Shown: in pieces, positions 1,086 through 19,264 of the stretch | How the letters are laid out: the number at the start of each line of letters is the position of its first letter | Numbering within the stretch: position 1 is the first letter of the stretch | NCBI GenBank assembly: GCA_002938315.1 | Contig: PTLL01000001.1 | Coordinates: 1-64,000 of the forward strand | Direction of reading: 5' to 3' | DNA length: 64,000 bases | Origin: Alphaproteobacteria bacterium MarineAlpha3_Bin2 | GTDB taxonomy: Bacteria > Pseudomonadota > Alphaproteobacteria > Rhodospirillales > Casp-alpha2 | Made by a program: the position numbers and the translations under genes | Notes under the pieces: model-generated | The model's database searches: none | What the model was told of the DNA's origin: nothing | What the model saw: the letters and a program-made list of their open reading frames with translations, nothing else

Positions 1086-1837
1086 GGCGCAGCCTCCTCG
1101 CCCCGGCGGACCAGGACCATGGAAAAATAAGGCGCGGCGTCCTCATCCACGTCTTCCAGGGCACAAATTTTTTCATCGCCCATGGAGGCACGCTCGACGT
1201 AACAGGCGCCGGCATCCAATCCCAATCGCGCCAGCACCTTTTTGACCTTCCCTAGGTGCCGGCCGACTTTCATGATCGCGGCGGCATCGGCTTCCTTCAG
1301 GCGCTTTTCCAGTTCCTCTTCATCCAACGGCGCCGGCAGGATGCTCAAAACCTGATTACGCGACACCAACGGCCGCCCGGCCGCCGCCGCGCAGGCACCC
1401 AAAGACGACACCCCCGGTACCACCCGAACGGTGTGGTCGCGGCTGAGCCGTTCAAAAATGTACATGAAGGAGCCGTACAGGAACGGGTCACCCTCACATA
1501 GCACCGCGACGTCCCGGCCCGCCGTCAAATGGGTGCTGATTTCGTTGGCGTAATGGTCATAAACATCGTTGGCGGGAAAGTTTCCCGGCGTCATCGGCGT
1601 GCGGATGCAGATTTCGGTCTGGCCGCCGGGTAAATGCGCCGCCGCGATGGAGCGCGCCAGACTATCGCCTTCTTCCGGCGCTGGATAGGCGACAACGCCG
1701 ACCGATTGAATGATCTTCAACGCTTTCAAGGTGATCAGCTCCGGGTCGCCGGGGCCGATGCCGAGGCCGTACAGGATGCCGGCTCCCTTGTCCTCTTTGC
1801 TCTCCACTTCCTTTGCTATTTCCTTTTTAGTGTTCAT
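1082..1837 (-). CDS. cobI: Precorrin-2 C20-methyltransferase CobI
   Basis: SAM-dependent methyltransferase of 251 aa that methylates C20 of precorrin-2 (or cobalt-factor II) in corrin ring synthesis. The tetrapyrrole-methylase fold is clear: GLGIGPGDPELITLKALK at residues 25-42, the CEGDPFLYGSFMYIFERL stretch near 113-130, and VPGVSSLGACAAAAGRPL near 139-156. The first 20 residues are Lys/Glu-rich and look like a non-conserved extension. It overlaps cobL upstream and cbiG-cobJ downstream by 4 bp each (ATGA), so the three are one translationally coupled unit. Length is normal for CobI/CbiL. Confidence 0.95.
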   Translation of the reverse strand: MNTKKEIAKEVESKEDKGAGILYGLGIGPGDPELITLKALKIIQSVGVVAYPAPEEGDSLARSIAAAHLPGGQTEICIRTPMTPGNFPANDVYDHYANEISTHLTAGRDVAVLCEGDPFLYGSFMYIFERLSRDHTVRVVPGVSSLGACAAAAGRPLVSRNQVLSILPAPLDEEELEKRLKEADAAAIMKVGRHLGKVKKVLARLGLDAGACYVERASMGDEKICALEDVDEDAAPYFSMVLVRRGEEAAP

Positions 1838-15552: not shown

Positions 15553-16848
15553 TTATTCTTCTTCGAGGAACATGTCGGCCTCGCTACGCTCAATCCGGCG
15601 TTTGAGTTTGAGCATTTCGAGACGGCGACCGTCCTCGGTTATCAAATTTTCAATGTAGCGCCCCTGGAACAGGTTGATGCCCATGGAGCGTCCGAAATCG
15701 ACGGATTCGCGATTGTCGCAACGGCACATAATCACCCGGTCCGGGCCTCCGGTTTTGACAATATTTTTTAATTTTGAATGCAATTCATCGCCACCGTCTG
15801 CCAAATCGGGGTGCCAAATCAACTTCGACAAATCGGCCCCCAGACGTTCGCGGTCAATGAAACCGATGGTTTCCATGGTCAATCCGTCGAGGCAAACCTT
15901 GTATCCCTTTTCCTGGACGAATTCGCGGGCGAACACATAGGCGCTGAGGTCACAGAAGATATCTTCCTTTTGCAACTCGATGATCATGGTACCCCGTCGC
16001 CCAGCGGCGATGTTGTCGTCGAAAGCCTGAAAATCCGGCGACAACACTGTGGCGATGTTGATGTTGAAACTGATGTCACCTGAAAAGGAGATACTGTCGG
16101 TCTTGGTCAGCATCGACAGCATGCGCCGGTCCAGCGTCATGGTCAGGTGTTGGAACAGCCACCGGTTGGCAACCAGATTAACGTCCGGCAGCATGGTTTC
16201 GCGCAAATCCTTAATCGAAATGAACAGTTCCGAGAACAACTGCTCTGGCACCATTTGCGCATCCAACCGGCAAATGAACTGACGGCGCACCAAATTCGAC
16301 AGATCAGCCCGGCTGAGCGCGGTTTCAACCCTGGCCAAAACCTTGGGCGTCAAGGGTTCGCCCTTTTCCTGTTTCGCCTTCAGGGCGGCGCGGGCATCCA
16401 TCCGGCCACGAACCTCGGTTTGGCGTTTTTTCTCCGCTTGCGCCAGACTTTGGACGCTTTGAAGTACGGCATCGAAATCCTGTTCGGCGTCGTACCAGGT
16501 GGTGAATTTTTGATCGGATGACTGTTCCTCGGAGACTAGGGGGTCGTCATCAAATAAATAACGGATCTGTTGGACCGCGGTTTCGACCTGCGGATGGGCC
16601 GTATCCTTATATATAACGAAGATGTCCGAATTTTTGACCGTAAAGACTTGAGCGTCCATAGAGGTGAGCAGCGACTCGAAATTACCGGCAGCGGTACGGA
16701 TATGCTGATCGCGACGGTTTATGGGCCTAAGCAGGGAAAGGTGCAGATGGGCGACCTTGCGTCCATCTTTATGTTTTTCCAGCCGATGCATGTAATCCAG
16801 CAGCAGACTTTCCTGATACGGGAGTTGTTTTTCCGGGGCTGTTGCCAT
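15553..16848 (-). CDS. Degenerate EAL-domain protein (paralogue A of a tandem pair)
   Basis: A 431-aa soluble protein without signal peptide. The N-terminal half (about residues 1-130) shows alpha/beta spacing like a degenerate GGDEF domain, with VFTVKNSDIFVIYKD but no GGDEF motif. The C-terminal half resembles an EAL domain stripped of catalysis: ISFNINIATVLSPDF matches the Asn strand, MIIELQKEDIF the Glu strand, VCLDGLTMETIGFID the DDFG site with the second Asp lost, and MGINLFQGRYIE the terminal QG motif. No EAL motif is seen. It is clearly homologous to the next gene upstream over its whole length. A catalytically dead c-di-GMP sensor or a protein-interaction module is possible; function unknown. 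Confidence 0.75.
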   Translation of the reverse strand: MATAPEKQLPYQESLLLDYMHRLEKHKDGRKVAHLHLSLLRPINRRDQHIRTAAGNFESLLTSMDAQVFTVKNSDIFVIYKDTAHPQVETAVQQIRYLFDDDPLVSEEQSSDQKFTTWYDAEQDFDAVLQSVQSLAQAEKKRQTEVRGRMDARAALKAKQEKGEPLTPKVLARVETALSRADLSNLVRRQFICRLDAQMVPEQLFSELFISIKDLRETMLPDVNLVANRWLFQHLTMTLDRRMLSMLTKTDSISFSGDISFNINIATVLSPDFQAFDDNIAAGRRGTMIIELQKEDIFCDLSAYVFAREFVQEKGYKVCLDGLTMETIGFIDRERLGADLSKLIWHPDLADGGDELHSKLKNIVKTGGPDRVIMCRCDNRESVDFGRSMGINLFQGRYIENLITEDGRRLEMLKLKRRIERSEADMFLEEE

Positions 16849-16862
16849 GCTTCAGACCCTTT

Positions 16863-18338
16863 TTAAGGTTGCGCCTTGGGCGGCAGGGGTTGGGCCGGCG
16901 CTACGGCTGGTTGAGCGGATGCCGGTGCGGCAACAGGTCGCGCCGGTGCTGGGGCTGGTTGCGCAGGGGCCGGCGCGGGAGTGGCAACCGGGGCAGGTGC
17001 GGCAGCCGCTGCCTGCAACGCCGCGGCTTGAGCGGCGGCTTGGGCCTTGGCCTTAGCGGCGGCTTGAGCTTTCTCCTTGGCTTTTTCCTGCTGCTCTTGA
17101 ACATCGGCAATCTTCTCCAAAAGATCATCGACTAAATAGCCCTGAAAATGGCTGATGCCGAGAGCCAAGCCCCACTTAACCGCTTCTTCCGTATCAACAC
17201 GGGCAAGGATCACACTATCCTTGCCAGTTGATGTCACCACGTCGCGCATATCATTCTGGCGGGCCGGGTCCACTTCTCCCTCGTAATCCTTATCCCAGTT
17301 AATTTTCACGAAATCGGACCGCAGCAATCCCGGTTCGATAAAATGCAGAGCCAGGGGATTTAGGCCGTCCACGACCACCCGATAGCCGCGTTCCTGTAGC
17401 GAGTCCCGGGCATAACCATAGGCGCTCATGTCCGCGAAAATGTCCAGCACCTGCATTTCCACCACCACTTTTGCGGTGTTTTTCCCGACGGACTGGTTAA
17501 ATTTATGAAAATCTCTGGAGAGAATGGTGCTGACGTTCAGGTTTAGGCTGATGGTATGGGGAAGGCCATCGAAATTTCGATTACCCAGCACCGCTAACAT
17601 GCGCCTGTCCAGGGTTTCGGTCAGGTACTGAAAAAGCCATGGCGATGCGAACAAATTGACTTCGGGGGCAATTCGTTTTTTCAGTTCGGCCATGGAAATG
17701 AAATGCTCGCGAAAAACAATTTTTCCGGGACCGCCCGGTCCCAATTGCAAGCAGGTTTGATCCCTGATCAGATCCGCAACCCGAGTGCCTTGGAGTTTTT
17801 GGTTGATAGCCGAAAGGTTCAAGGCCCCCAAGGGTTCGCCTTTTTCCTTATCCTCCCTGACTTTGGCTTCGGTTTGCTGCTGATTGAACCGTTGGGCTTC
17901 GACCGCAAGGTCGTTGGCGATGGCAATGAAGGTCGAATAATCCTCCGGCTGGCTGAGGTCGTACCAAGTGGAAAAGGCGTCCTCGAAGGCGCCATCCTCA
18001 ATCTTCATCAAGGGGTCTTCGTTAAACAGCACACGAACCTTATCGACATAGGCATCAGCGTCATCGACAGGGACGTTACGGCAGATCAGAGCGATATCTG
18101 CATTGTGGAGTGAAAAAACAGTGGCTTCGTGGCTTTCCATGAGGCCAACGAAGGTACGGACGGCGATTGTAATAAAATGGGGCTGGCGATTCGACGCCCG
18201 CAATTGTGACAAATGGATATGGATCGCAAAAACGCCGGCCGGATTCGCCTCGACACGCTTGAGGCGAGACAGCAATAGGCTTTCCTCGCTTGTTTCCGGT
18301 TCGCGGATACCGCCGCTCGCGTAGCCGGGATCGGCCAT
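16863..18338 (-). CDS. Degenerate EAL-domain protein with Ala/Pro-rich tail (paralogue B)
   Basis: A 491-aa protein aligned end to end with the gene 14 bp downstream: HIHLSQLRASNRQ matches HLHLSLLRPINRR, WLFQYLTETLDRRMLAVL matches WLFQHLTMTLDRRMLSML, and LGISHFQGYLVDD matches MGINLFQGRYIEN. EAL-like remnants include SLNLNVSTILSRDF, VVEMQVLDIF, VVVDGLNPLALHFI and a retained KINW where EAL proteins have KID. The EAL triplet and the second Asp of DDFG are missing. The last 80 residues are a Lys/Gln/Ala linker and then a low-complexity Ala-Pro repeat that A lacks. It is first in a two-gene operon and divergent from the phosphatase at 18473. Confidence 0.75.
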   Translation of the reverse strand: MADPGYASGGIREPETSEESLLLSRLKRVEANPAGVFAIHIHLSQLRASNRQPHFITIAVRTFVGLMESHEATVFSLHNADIALICRNVPVDDADAYVDKVRVLFNEDPLMKIEDGAFEDAFSTWYDLSQPEDYSTFIAIANDLAVEAQRFNQQQTEAKVREDKEKGEPLGALNLSAINQKLQGTRVADLIRDQTCLQLGPGGPGKIVFREHFISMAELKKRIAPEVNLFASPWLFQYLTETLDRRMLAVLGNRNFDGLPHTISLNLNVSTILSRDFHKFNQSVGKNTAKVVVEMQVLDIFADMSAYGYARDSLQERGYRVVVDGLNPLALHFIEPGLLRSDFVKINWDKDYEGEVDPARQNDMRDVVTSTGKDSVILARVDTEEAVKWGLALGISHFQGYLVDDLLEKIADVQEQQEKAKEKAQAAAKAKAQAAAQAAALQAAAAAPAPVATPAPAPAQPAPAPARPVAAPASAQPAVAPAQPLPPKAQP

Positions 18339-18472
18339 GATTATACCCTAATATCCATTGTTCCTGGATTCGATTCAGACCGTAAAATCAAACCCTTAAT
18401 ATCAGATTACCGCTAAAACGAAACGATTTACCCGGAAACCCACTCCAACACCGCTCAGAGACTTAACCCACC

Positions 18473-19264
18473 TTGCAGAGAGAAGGGCTCTGGGCCATCA
18501 TATTGGCAGAGATGACCCCTATACACCAGAGTCCGGACCCCGCCTCTAGGACCGCCCACGTCCCGGATGGATGCCGCGTATACGCCATCGGCGATATCCA
18601 TGGGCGGGCCGACCTTTTGAGACGGCTGCACCTACAAATCATGGAAGATGCCGCCAATGCTGCAAGCCTGCGAAAAGTGGTGGTTTATGTTGGCGATTAC
18701 GTGGATCGAGGCCCCGAAAGCGCCACTGTTATCAACATGCTGATCAACGAGCCCCTCGAAGGGTTCGAGGTCCACCACCTCAAAGGCAATCATGAGGGCA
18801 TGATGATAGATTTCCTTGAGACCGGCGAAGGCGATATGTGGATGATGAACGGCGCCAAGGATACCTTGGCAAGTTACGGCCTTGATGTATTAGACCTCCG
18901 TCCATTCCAGAGTGACTTTAACGGCCTTAGCGGTGTCCTCGAGAAAGCCCTACCGGATAACCACCGTGCGTTCCTGGACGGCTTGGAGCTATTTTACCTG
19001 GAAGGCGATTACATCTTCGCCCATGCCGGACTCAAACCCGGCGTGGCGCTGGAAGACCAAAGCGAAAGAGATATTACCTGGATCAGGGACGAATTCACCG
19101 AAACGGACGCCGATTTCGGCGCCATCGTCGTCCACGGCCATACCATCCGGGACCAACCCCAAATTCGACCCAACCGCATCGGCATTGATACCGGCGCCTG
19201 GCACTCCAACCACTTGACGGCGCTGGTGTTGGAAACAGACACGCGGCGTTTTTTGCAAACGTAA
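18473..19264 (+). CDS. PPP-family metallophosphatase (serine/threonine phosphatase-like)
   Basis: All metal-binding motifs of the PPP phosphatase fold are in the 263 aa: AIGDIHGRADLLRRL, VGDYVDRGPES, LKGNHEGMM, IFAHAGLKPG and VVHGHTIRD. Bacterial members act as protein Ser/Thr phosphatases or as dinucleoside polyphosphate hydrolases, and the substrate cannot be read from the sequence. Two starts are plausible: the given one, and ATG at 18512 (MTPIHQS), which fits better with the conserved core starting soon after. It is divergent from the EAL-like pair and precedes the sugar genes by 70 bp. Confidence 0.92.
   Translation: MQREGLWAIILAEMTPIHQSPDPASRTAHVPDGCRVYAIGDIHGRADLLRRLHLQIMEDAANAASLRKVVVYVGDYVDRGPESATVINMLINEPLEGFEVHHLKGNHEGMMIDFLETGEGDMWMMNGAKDTLASYGLDVLDLRPFQSDFNGLSGVLEKALPDNHRAFLDGLELFYLEGDYIFAHAGLKPGVALEDQSERDITWIRDEFTETDADFGAIVVHGHTIRDQPQIRPNRIGIDTGAWHSNHLTALVLETDTRRFLQT

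Follow-up and report, generated by a model that had tools for sequence, protein, structure and literature searches.

Analysis of the window, a 64,000-nt stretch of DNA from Alphaproteobacteria bacterium MarineAlpha3_Bin2, revealed two adjacent genes, A and B, that form one operon, are under constraint and encode proteins with degenerate GGDEF halves and an EAL pocket in which one set of residues has been kept almost without exception, and another lost, across a whole family; these four features emerge from computation. The explanation that we favour, with moderate and roughly balanced confidence, is that A and B are a non-hydrolysing GGDEF–EAL pair whose members act together and whose one-metal pocket senses a nucleotide or a metal. 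The genes are neighbouring open reading frames on the minus strand, with A upstream and 14 nt between them, and their parts are as follows.

16863–18338, minus strand: gene A (upstream), 491 residues, degenerate GGDEF–EAL protein.
17958–18233, minus strand: A residues 36–127, GGDEF-like half, with the order beta-alpha-alpha-beta-beta-alpha-beta in the model; dual-domain matches span residues 10–404.
Within 17958–18233, minus strand: HNADI at the expected GGDEF place of gene A, placed by eye.
17124–17828, minus strand: A residues 171–405, EAL-like barrel, from structure match and alignment; residues kept are Q194, E211, N266, E294, D324, K345 and Q399; changed are the Arg (S215), the second Asp (G325), the Asp of KID (N347) and the Glu of EGVE (A379).
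16866–17105, minus strand: A residues 412–491, end of the last helix and low-complexity Ala/Pro tail, with pLDDT below 50 over most of 452–490.
16849–16862, minus strand: 14-nt gap between the A stop and the B start, with a purine-rich AAAGGG as a possible ribosome-binding site (by eye).
15553–16848, minus strand: gene B (downstream), 431 residues, degenerate GGDEF–EAL protein.
16489–16761, minus strand: B residues 30–120, GGDEF-like half, from the model; dual-domain matches in some rows only.
Within 16489–16761, minus strand: KNSDI at the expected GGDEF place of gene B, placed by eye.
15646–16350, minus strand: B residues 167–401, EAL-like barrel, from structure match and alignment; residues kept are Q190, E207, N262, E291, D321, K342 and Q395; changed are the Arg (S211), the second Asp (G322), the Asp of KID (I344) and the Glu of EGVE (C375).
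18339–18472, no strand: 134-nt intergenic region between A and the metallophosphatase gene.
18473–19264, plus strand: PrpE/ApaH-like metallophosphatase gene, divergent from A; its NCBIfam matches all lie below the equivalog cut-offs.

The two proteins align end to end with 141 of 399 positions identical (35%, E 8e-80), and the original prediction of tandem EAL-like paralogues is borne out. It had also described the EAL triplet and the second Asp of DDFG as absent; A indeed has EHF and B has ELF in place of the triplet, and DDFG reads DGLN and DGLT, respectively, but the Glu of the triplet is itself retained. The Ala/Pro tail ascribed to one copy is real in A, where Ala and Pro make up 62% of the final 80 residues, yet a comparable tail is found in only 6 of 71 A sequences. 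No membrane-spanning stretch was found in A or B, the best 19-residue hydropathy values being 1.21 and 0.94, respectively.

AlphaFold models were computed with 71 A and 80 B sequences as input, giving a mean pLDDT of 87.6 and a pTM of 0.67 for A, and 85.2 and 0.58 for B. Both models match dual-domain GGDEF–EAL structures. The leading Foldseek match was RbdA for A and MorA for B, LapD following closely in both cases; in VIA-align, LapD and RbdA were tied in the top group for A and B alike (Z 17–19), with FimX, RocR and BlrP1 ranked below them. Against Vibrio cholerae LapD, Z is 18.4 over 329 residues for A and 18.9 over 334 residues for B, and against the LapD EAL domain alone (3pjt_A) the corresponding values are Z 17.4, rmsd 3.3 over 216 residues and Z 18.5, rmsd 3.5 over 221 residues. 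Structural matching to LapD thus assigns the EAL barrel fold to both modelled chains, and in each a GGDEF-like lobe lies ahead of the EAL lobe. The dual-domain matches cover residues 10–404 of A and 1–400 of B with an rmsd above 10, which we read as the lobes being placed differently; support for the GGDEF half is thinner in B, for which just some VIA-align rows extend before residue 154.

Sequence searches see this fold faintly. The top Pfam family is still EAL (PF00563), at 27.2 bits for A and 17.9 bits for B, both below the curated cut-off of 31.3, and it is matched at E 0.01 by 70 of the 71 A and 67 of the 80 B sequences. Surveys that count Pfam-positive proteins would therefore miss proteins scoring like A and B, an example being the Pfam-based survey outlined in a passage of PMC9756655. 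Pfam GGDEF gave no match to either protein up to E 10, and the GG[D/E]EF motif is likewise absent from both. Searching NCBIfam returned nothing for B and, for A, matches chiefly over the tail, none of them significant; a single-protein sequence search of the PDB found none for B and only matches inside the low-complexity tail for A. With profiles, RbdA was the sole significant protein in the PDB for B (E 8.5e-4 and 3.8e-3), and the A profile reached BlrP1 only at E 0.75, ranked below unrelated matches. Profile–profile comparison with 30 canonical EAL domains, a biased sample in that they are the best-scoring loci, was weak (probability 14.5% for A and 12.8% for B). Computation, through the models above all, thus indicates an EAL fold with a degenerate GGDEF half in each chain, as had been proposed, rather than an unrelated fold.

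The pocket was compared across an alignment of 199 distinct family rows that includes both window proteins and in which seven pairs of rows are at least 95% identical. Retained are the Gln of YQP (199 rows), the Glu of EAL (196), the Asn (199), the Glu of ExTE (197), the first Asp of DDFG (196), the Lys (199) and the Gln of QG (199), and the E, N, E and D metal-1 ligands occur together with the catalytic Lys and the two pocket Gln residues in 195 rows. As aligned, the family, both window proteins included, thus has the metal-1 ligands of an active EAL phosphodiesterase; four rows break the metal-1 set, L230 and L231 at three sites. The metal-2 Asp residues (the second Asp of DDFG and the Asp of KID) and the catalytic first Glu of EGVE are each kept in 0 of 199 rows, and the Arg of ExLxR is likewise found in none, its position being occupied by Ser in 160 and Ala in 34. 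In 30 strong EAL domains from related genomes, ExLxR and DDFG are present in all 30 and EGVE in 26. Conservation of at least 95% is found at 7 of 13 canonical pocket positions versus 13 of 207 other positions of the EAL half (p 2e-5); the labels of the 13 positions, including the RocR labels, are in part those we take to be standard. The earlier view that these proteins had lost their catalytic residues is right for metal 2, the EGVE Glu and the ExLxR Arg and wrong for the Glu of EAL, the other metal-1 ligands and the Lys; that both copies had changed the same sites holds, and extends to all 199 rows.

Alignment, spacing and the strands of the models indicate that E211 of A and E207 of B are probably the Glu of EAL. 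Counted from the first Asp, the Lys is 21 and the KID position 23 residues on, the same spacing as in BlrP1 and PA3825. A passage of PMC5301497 gives the metal-1 ligands of PA3825 as Glu39, Asn98, Asp130 (as printed) and Asp160, and its metal-2 ligands as Asp161 and Asp183. For BlrP1, an excerpt of PMC3989770 has Lys323 as the proposed water activator and Arg192 touching a phosphate of c-di-GMP. According to part of PMC6717892, an EAL domain without substrate binds a single metal, and with substrate it binds two, so that the A/B family looks as though it is frozen in the one-metal state. Since one and the same half of the cleavage apparatus is gone from both proteins and the other half has hardly changed, A and B appear to be a long-conserved regulatory pair and not worn-out enzymes. 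Which residues are kept and which are lost also allows one to test directly what an EAL pocket requires to bind a ligand, as distinct from cleaving it.

The family is present in 91 of 100 related genomes and 89 of 289 genomes of the class, the window's own genome being in each sample, and in 14 of 398 genomes of a phylum sample at E 1e-10 (window's genome included), all 14 of them from the window's class. Scanning named GTDB genomes turned up 439 related stretches, and the 80 best became the loci analysed; the titles are mostly Rhodospirillales or Rhodospirillaceae, in keeping with the distribution foreseen, and include Magnetovibrio, Magnetospira, Thalassospiraceae and Terasakiella pusilla. 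In 75 of the best 80 loci A directly precedes B in the same orientation, A being a contig-end fragment in five of the 75, and in the other five loci the B start is 3–174 nt from a contig end. At the 70 loci where both genes are full length, the distance from the A stop to the first ATG of B, a mechanical choice of start, ranges between −27 and +56 nt, with a median of 4. For the sequence sets, A rows shorter than 380 residues or cut were dropped, leaving 70 of 75 A-match loci (the five dropped are the contig-end pieces); of the B rows, L125 was dropped and 79 of 80 loci were kept. For some rows the start was placed from the homology offset, and the first residue of an open reading frame was written as M.

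At class level, 40 loci were drawn from the 89 positive genomes; the pair occurs in 8 of them and a single gene in the other 32, and some genomes have additional copies elsewhere. An adjacent partner is thus not always needed. A tree of 101 sequences separates an A-like group (support 0.995) from a B-like group (0.988), these being local supports on a tree of uncertain root, and one lone-gene row sits in the B-like group. In genomes G075 and G092 there are two B-type genes each, on separate contigs with no adjoining A (L051, L060, L070 and L071), and one of the two in each genome (L070, L071) is in a cobalamin neighbourhood. Genome G074 has A and B each broken into several open reading frame pieces (L050, 8712–11384), through assembly errors or decay.

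Both genes are under purifying selection, with dN/dS near 0.1: comparing A with its counterpart in L005 gives 0.085 and comparing B with that in L074 gives 0.11, more distant pairs approaching saturation of synonymous sites. The broken catalytic motifs could be ascribed to random decay of a duplicated former GGDEF–EAL enzyme; against the low dN/dS, the identical sites changed across 199 rows and the breadth of conservation in related genomes already given, the chance of this is practically nil, and we reject it. The idea of a settled family is sustained by the same purifying selection. A search of plasmids returned nine Azospirillum records at 24.7–28.2% identity, unannotated there or called 'hypothetical protein'. 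A phage or plasmid origin was rejected on the conserved chromosomal gene order.

A survey of gene neighbourhoods, suggested earlier as a check, found the A–B operon conserved, but the genes around it give no clear function. Of the 66 loci that have enough sequence upstream, 44 show a divergent metallophosphatase gene adjoining A and 22 lack it. Frequent neighbours of the pair are this gene, an epimerase, heptose genes and cobalamin genes, which look like stable gene order and point to no clear function; nine neighbours were looked for in the 40 class-level loci, 31 of which lack them all. Near some lone-gene loci (L198, L199, L200, L219, L223 and L226) we noted a short response regulator (five loci) and a membrane histidine-kinase-like protein (five loci), which we take to resemble RegA/RegB.

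Every family-bearing genome of the class sample has GGDEF matches (89 of 89, checked as 67 plus 22, the 22 read from the match list) versus 118 of 200 others, with p 9e-17 in a Fisher test that ignores shared descent and genome size or reduction; by genus the counts are 72 of 72 and 90 of 152 (p 2e-13, also ignoring shared descent and genome size). As GGDEF domains occur in all 89 family-bearing genomes of the 289, c-di-GMP stays a possible ligand. Three small genomes rated 100% complete (G145, G269 and G364) have three or four GGDEF matches and one HD-GYP match each, PilZ matches and strong EAL matches being absent; each has two weak EAL matches, which we read as the A/B pair itself. They form a natural test bed for c-di-GMP receptors. 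In the window's genome the other EAL matches (L001 and L002) are C-terminal pieces only, owing to assembly limits or real truncation; the L001 piece (1429–1695, minus strand) carries KID, EGVE and GQG motifs.

On the favoured reading, A and B, old non-hydrolysing GGDEF–EAL proteins made from one operon, would most likely form a regulatory complex. One divalent metal, M1, would sit in the pocket and may in turn bind a small phosphate-bearing ligand, be it pGpG, another nucleotide or c-di-GMP in an altered pose; alternatively, the pocket may respond to the metal alone. Any ligand would stay uncut. As in LapD, occupancy would shift how the GGDEF-like lobe and the linker helix are seated against the EAL lobe, and this movement would alter contacts between A and B or with partners in the cytoplasm. 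The A–B heterodimer is putative, the bound metal presumed, and the ligands named are candidates. It is possible, if somewhat doubtful, that the family inverts the scheme of the known degenerate EAL receptors: in a broad alphaproteobacterial branch, its pocket would be locked in the M1-only state, read something other than ordinary c-di-GMP, such as the linear product pGpG or the metal itself, and report it through the A–B heterodimer. If the pocket does take one metal together with a nucleotide, c-di-GMP or pGpG signalling would have a widespread branch in the Alphaproteobacteria that is so far unmapped.

We consider it unlikely that A and B are pure docking scaffolds, with residues conserved for the fold only and neither metal nor nucleotide bound; YdiV is an EAL-only protein that acts through contacts. 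Hydrolysis is not expected of them, the DDFGTG loop is replaced, the GGDEF motif is gone and the window's A has a low-complexity tail; moreover, YdiV and similar EAL-only relatives act without catalysis, as stated in a passage of PMC10333796. Nevertheless, a metal-1 set, Lys and two Gln residues at 98–100% identity are hard to ascribe to folding. Those same metal-1 ligands and the water-activating Lys might instead serve an active one-metal phosphoesterase with a different substrate, which we judge quite improbable: the metal-2 ligands and the EGVE Glu are gone from all 199 rows, and a change of that Glu abolished the activity of TBD1265, as retold in part of PMC12943098. That A and B are an ordinary receptor pair of the LapD/FimX type, with c-di-GMP bound to the EAL lobes in its usual pose and the signal passed on to a partner, seems rather unlikely, although LapD is among the tied-top structural matches of both chains, the family in the class sample is limited to genomes with GGDEF matches and, as we read them, the three small genomes with GGDEF and HD-GYP and no PilZ have only the pair as EAL matches. 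Binding of c-di-GMP by degenerate EAL domains is said in a section of PMC10333796 to be determined by ExLxR, whose Arg is missing from 199 of 199 rows and whose loss argues against this reading; in addition, the metal Glu that A and B keep is lost in LapD, where an excerpt of PMC3032553 gives KVL. The suggestion of c-di-GMP sensing is accordingly weakened by the lost Arg and kept possible by the GGDEF domains.

Comparison with known systems sets the favoured pair beside several non-enzymatic EAL proteins. LapD, the c-di-GMP receptor of Pseudomonas fluorescens and V. cholerae, has its GGDEF and its EAL half both degenerate, as A and B do, is likewise not expected to be catalytic and gives the tied-top structural match, but it is transmembrane, has its metal Glu replaced by Lys and keeps R450, according to a passage of PMC3032553. 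A and B, with the metal-1 set kept, the ExLxR Arg lost and no membrane-spanning stretch, display the reverse pocket loss. This reversed pattern in non-catalytic GGDEF–EAL proteins appears to be new; our search of the published literature, in which most subscription papers were beyond reach, found no description of the family. The EAL domain of FimX is also a non-catalytic c-di-GMP receptor and a close structural match, but a passage of PMC5301497 has it without the DDFGTG motif needed for metal coordination, and it is listed with ExLxR in part of PMC10333796. RbdA (PA0861), the first Foldseek match of A and the significant PDB match of the B profile, differs in retaining LDDF where the profile alignment has LDGL in B. 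CsrD, YdiV and similar proteins, likened to A and B by description only (a passage of PMC10333796), resemble them in that an EAL fold regulates without cutting.
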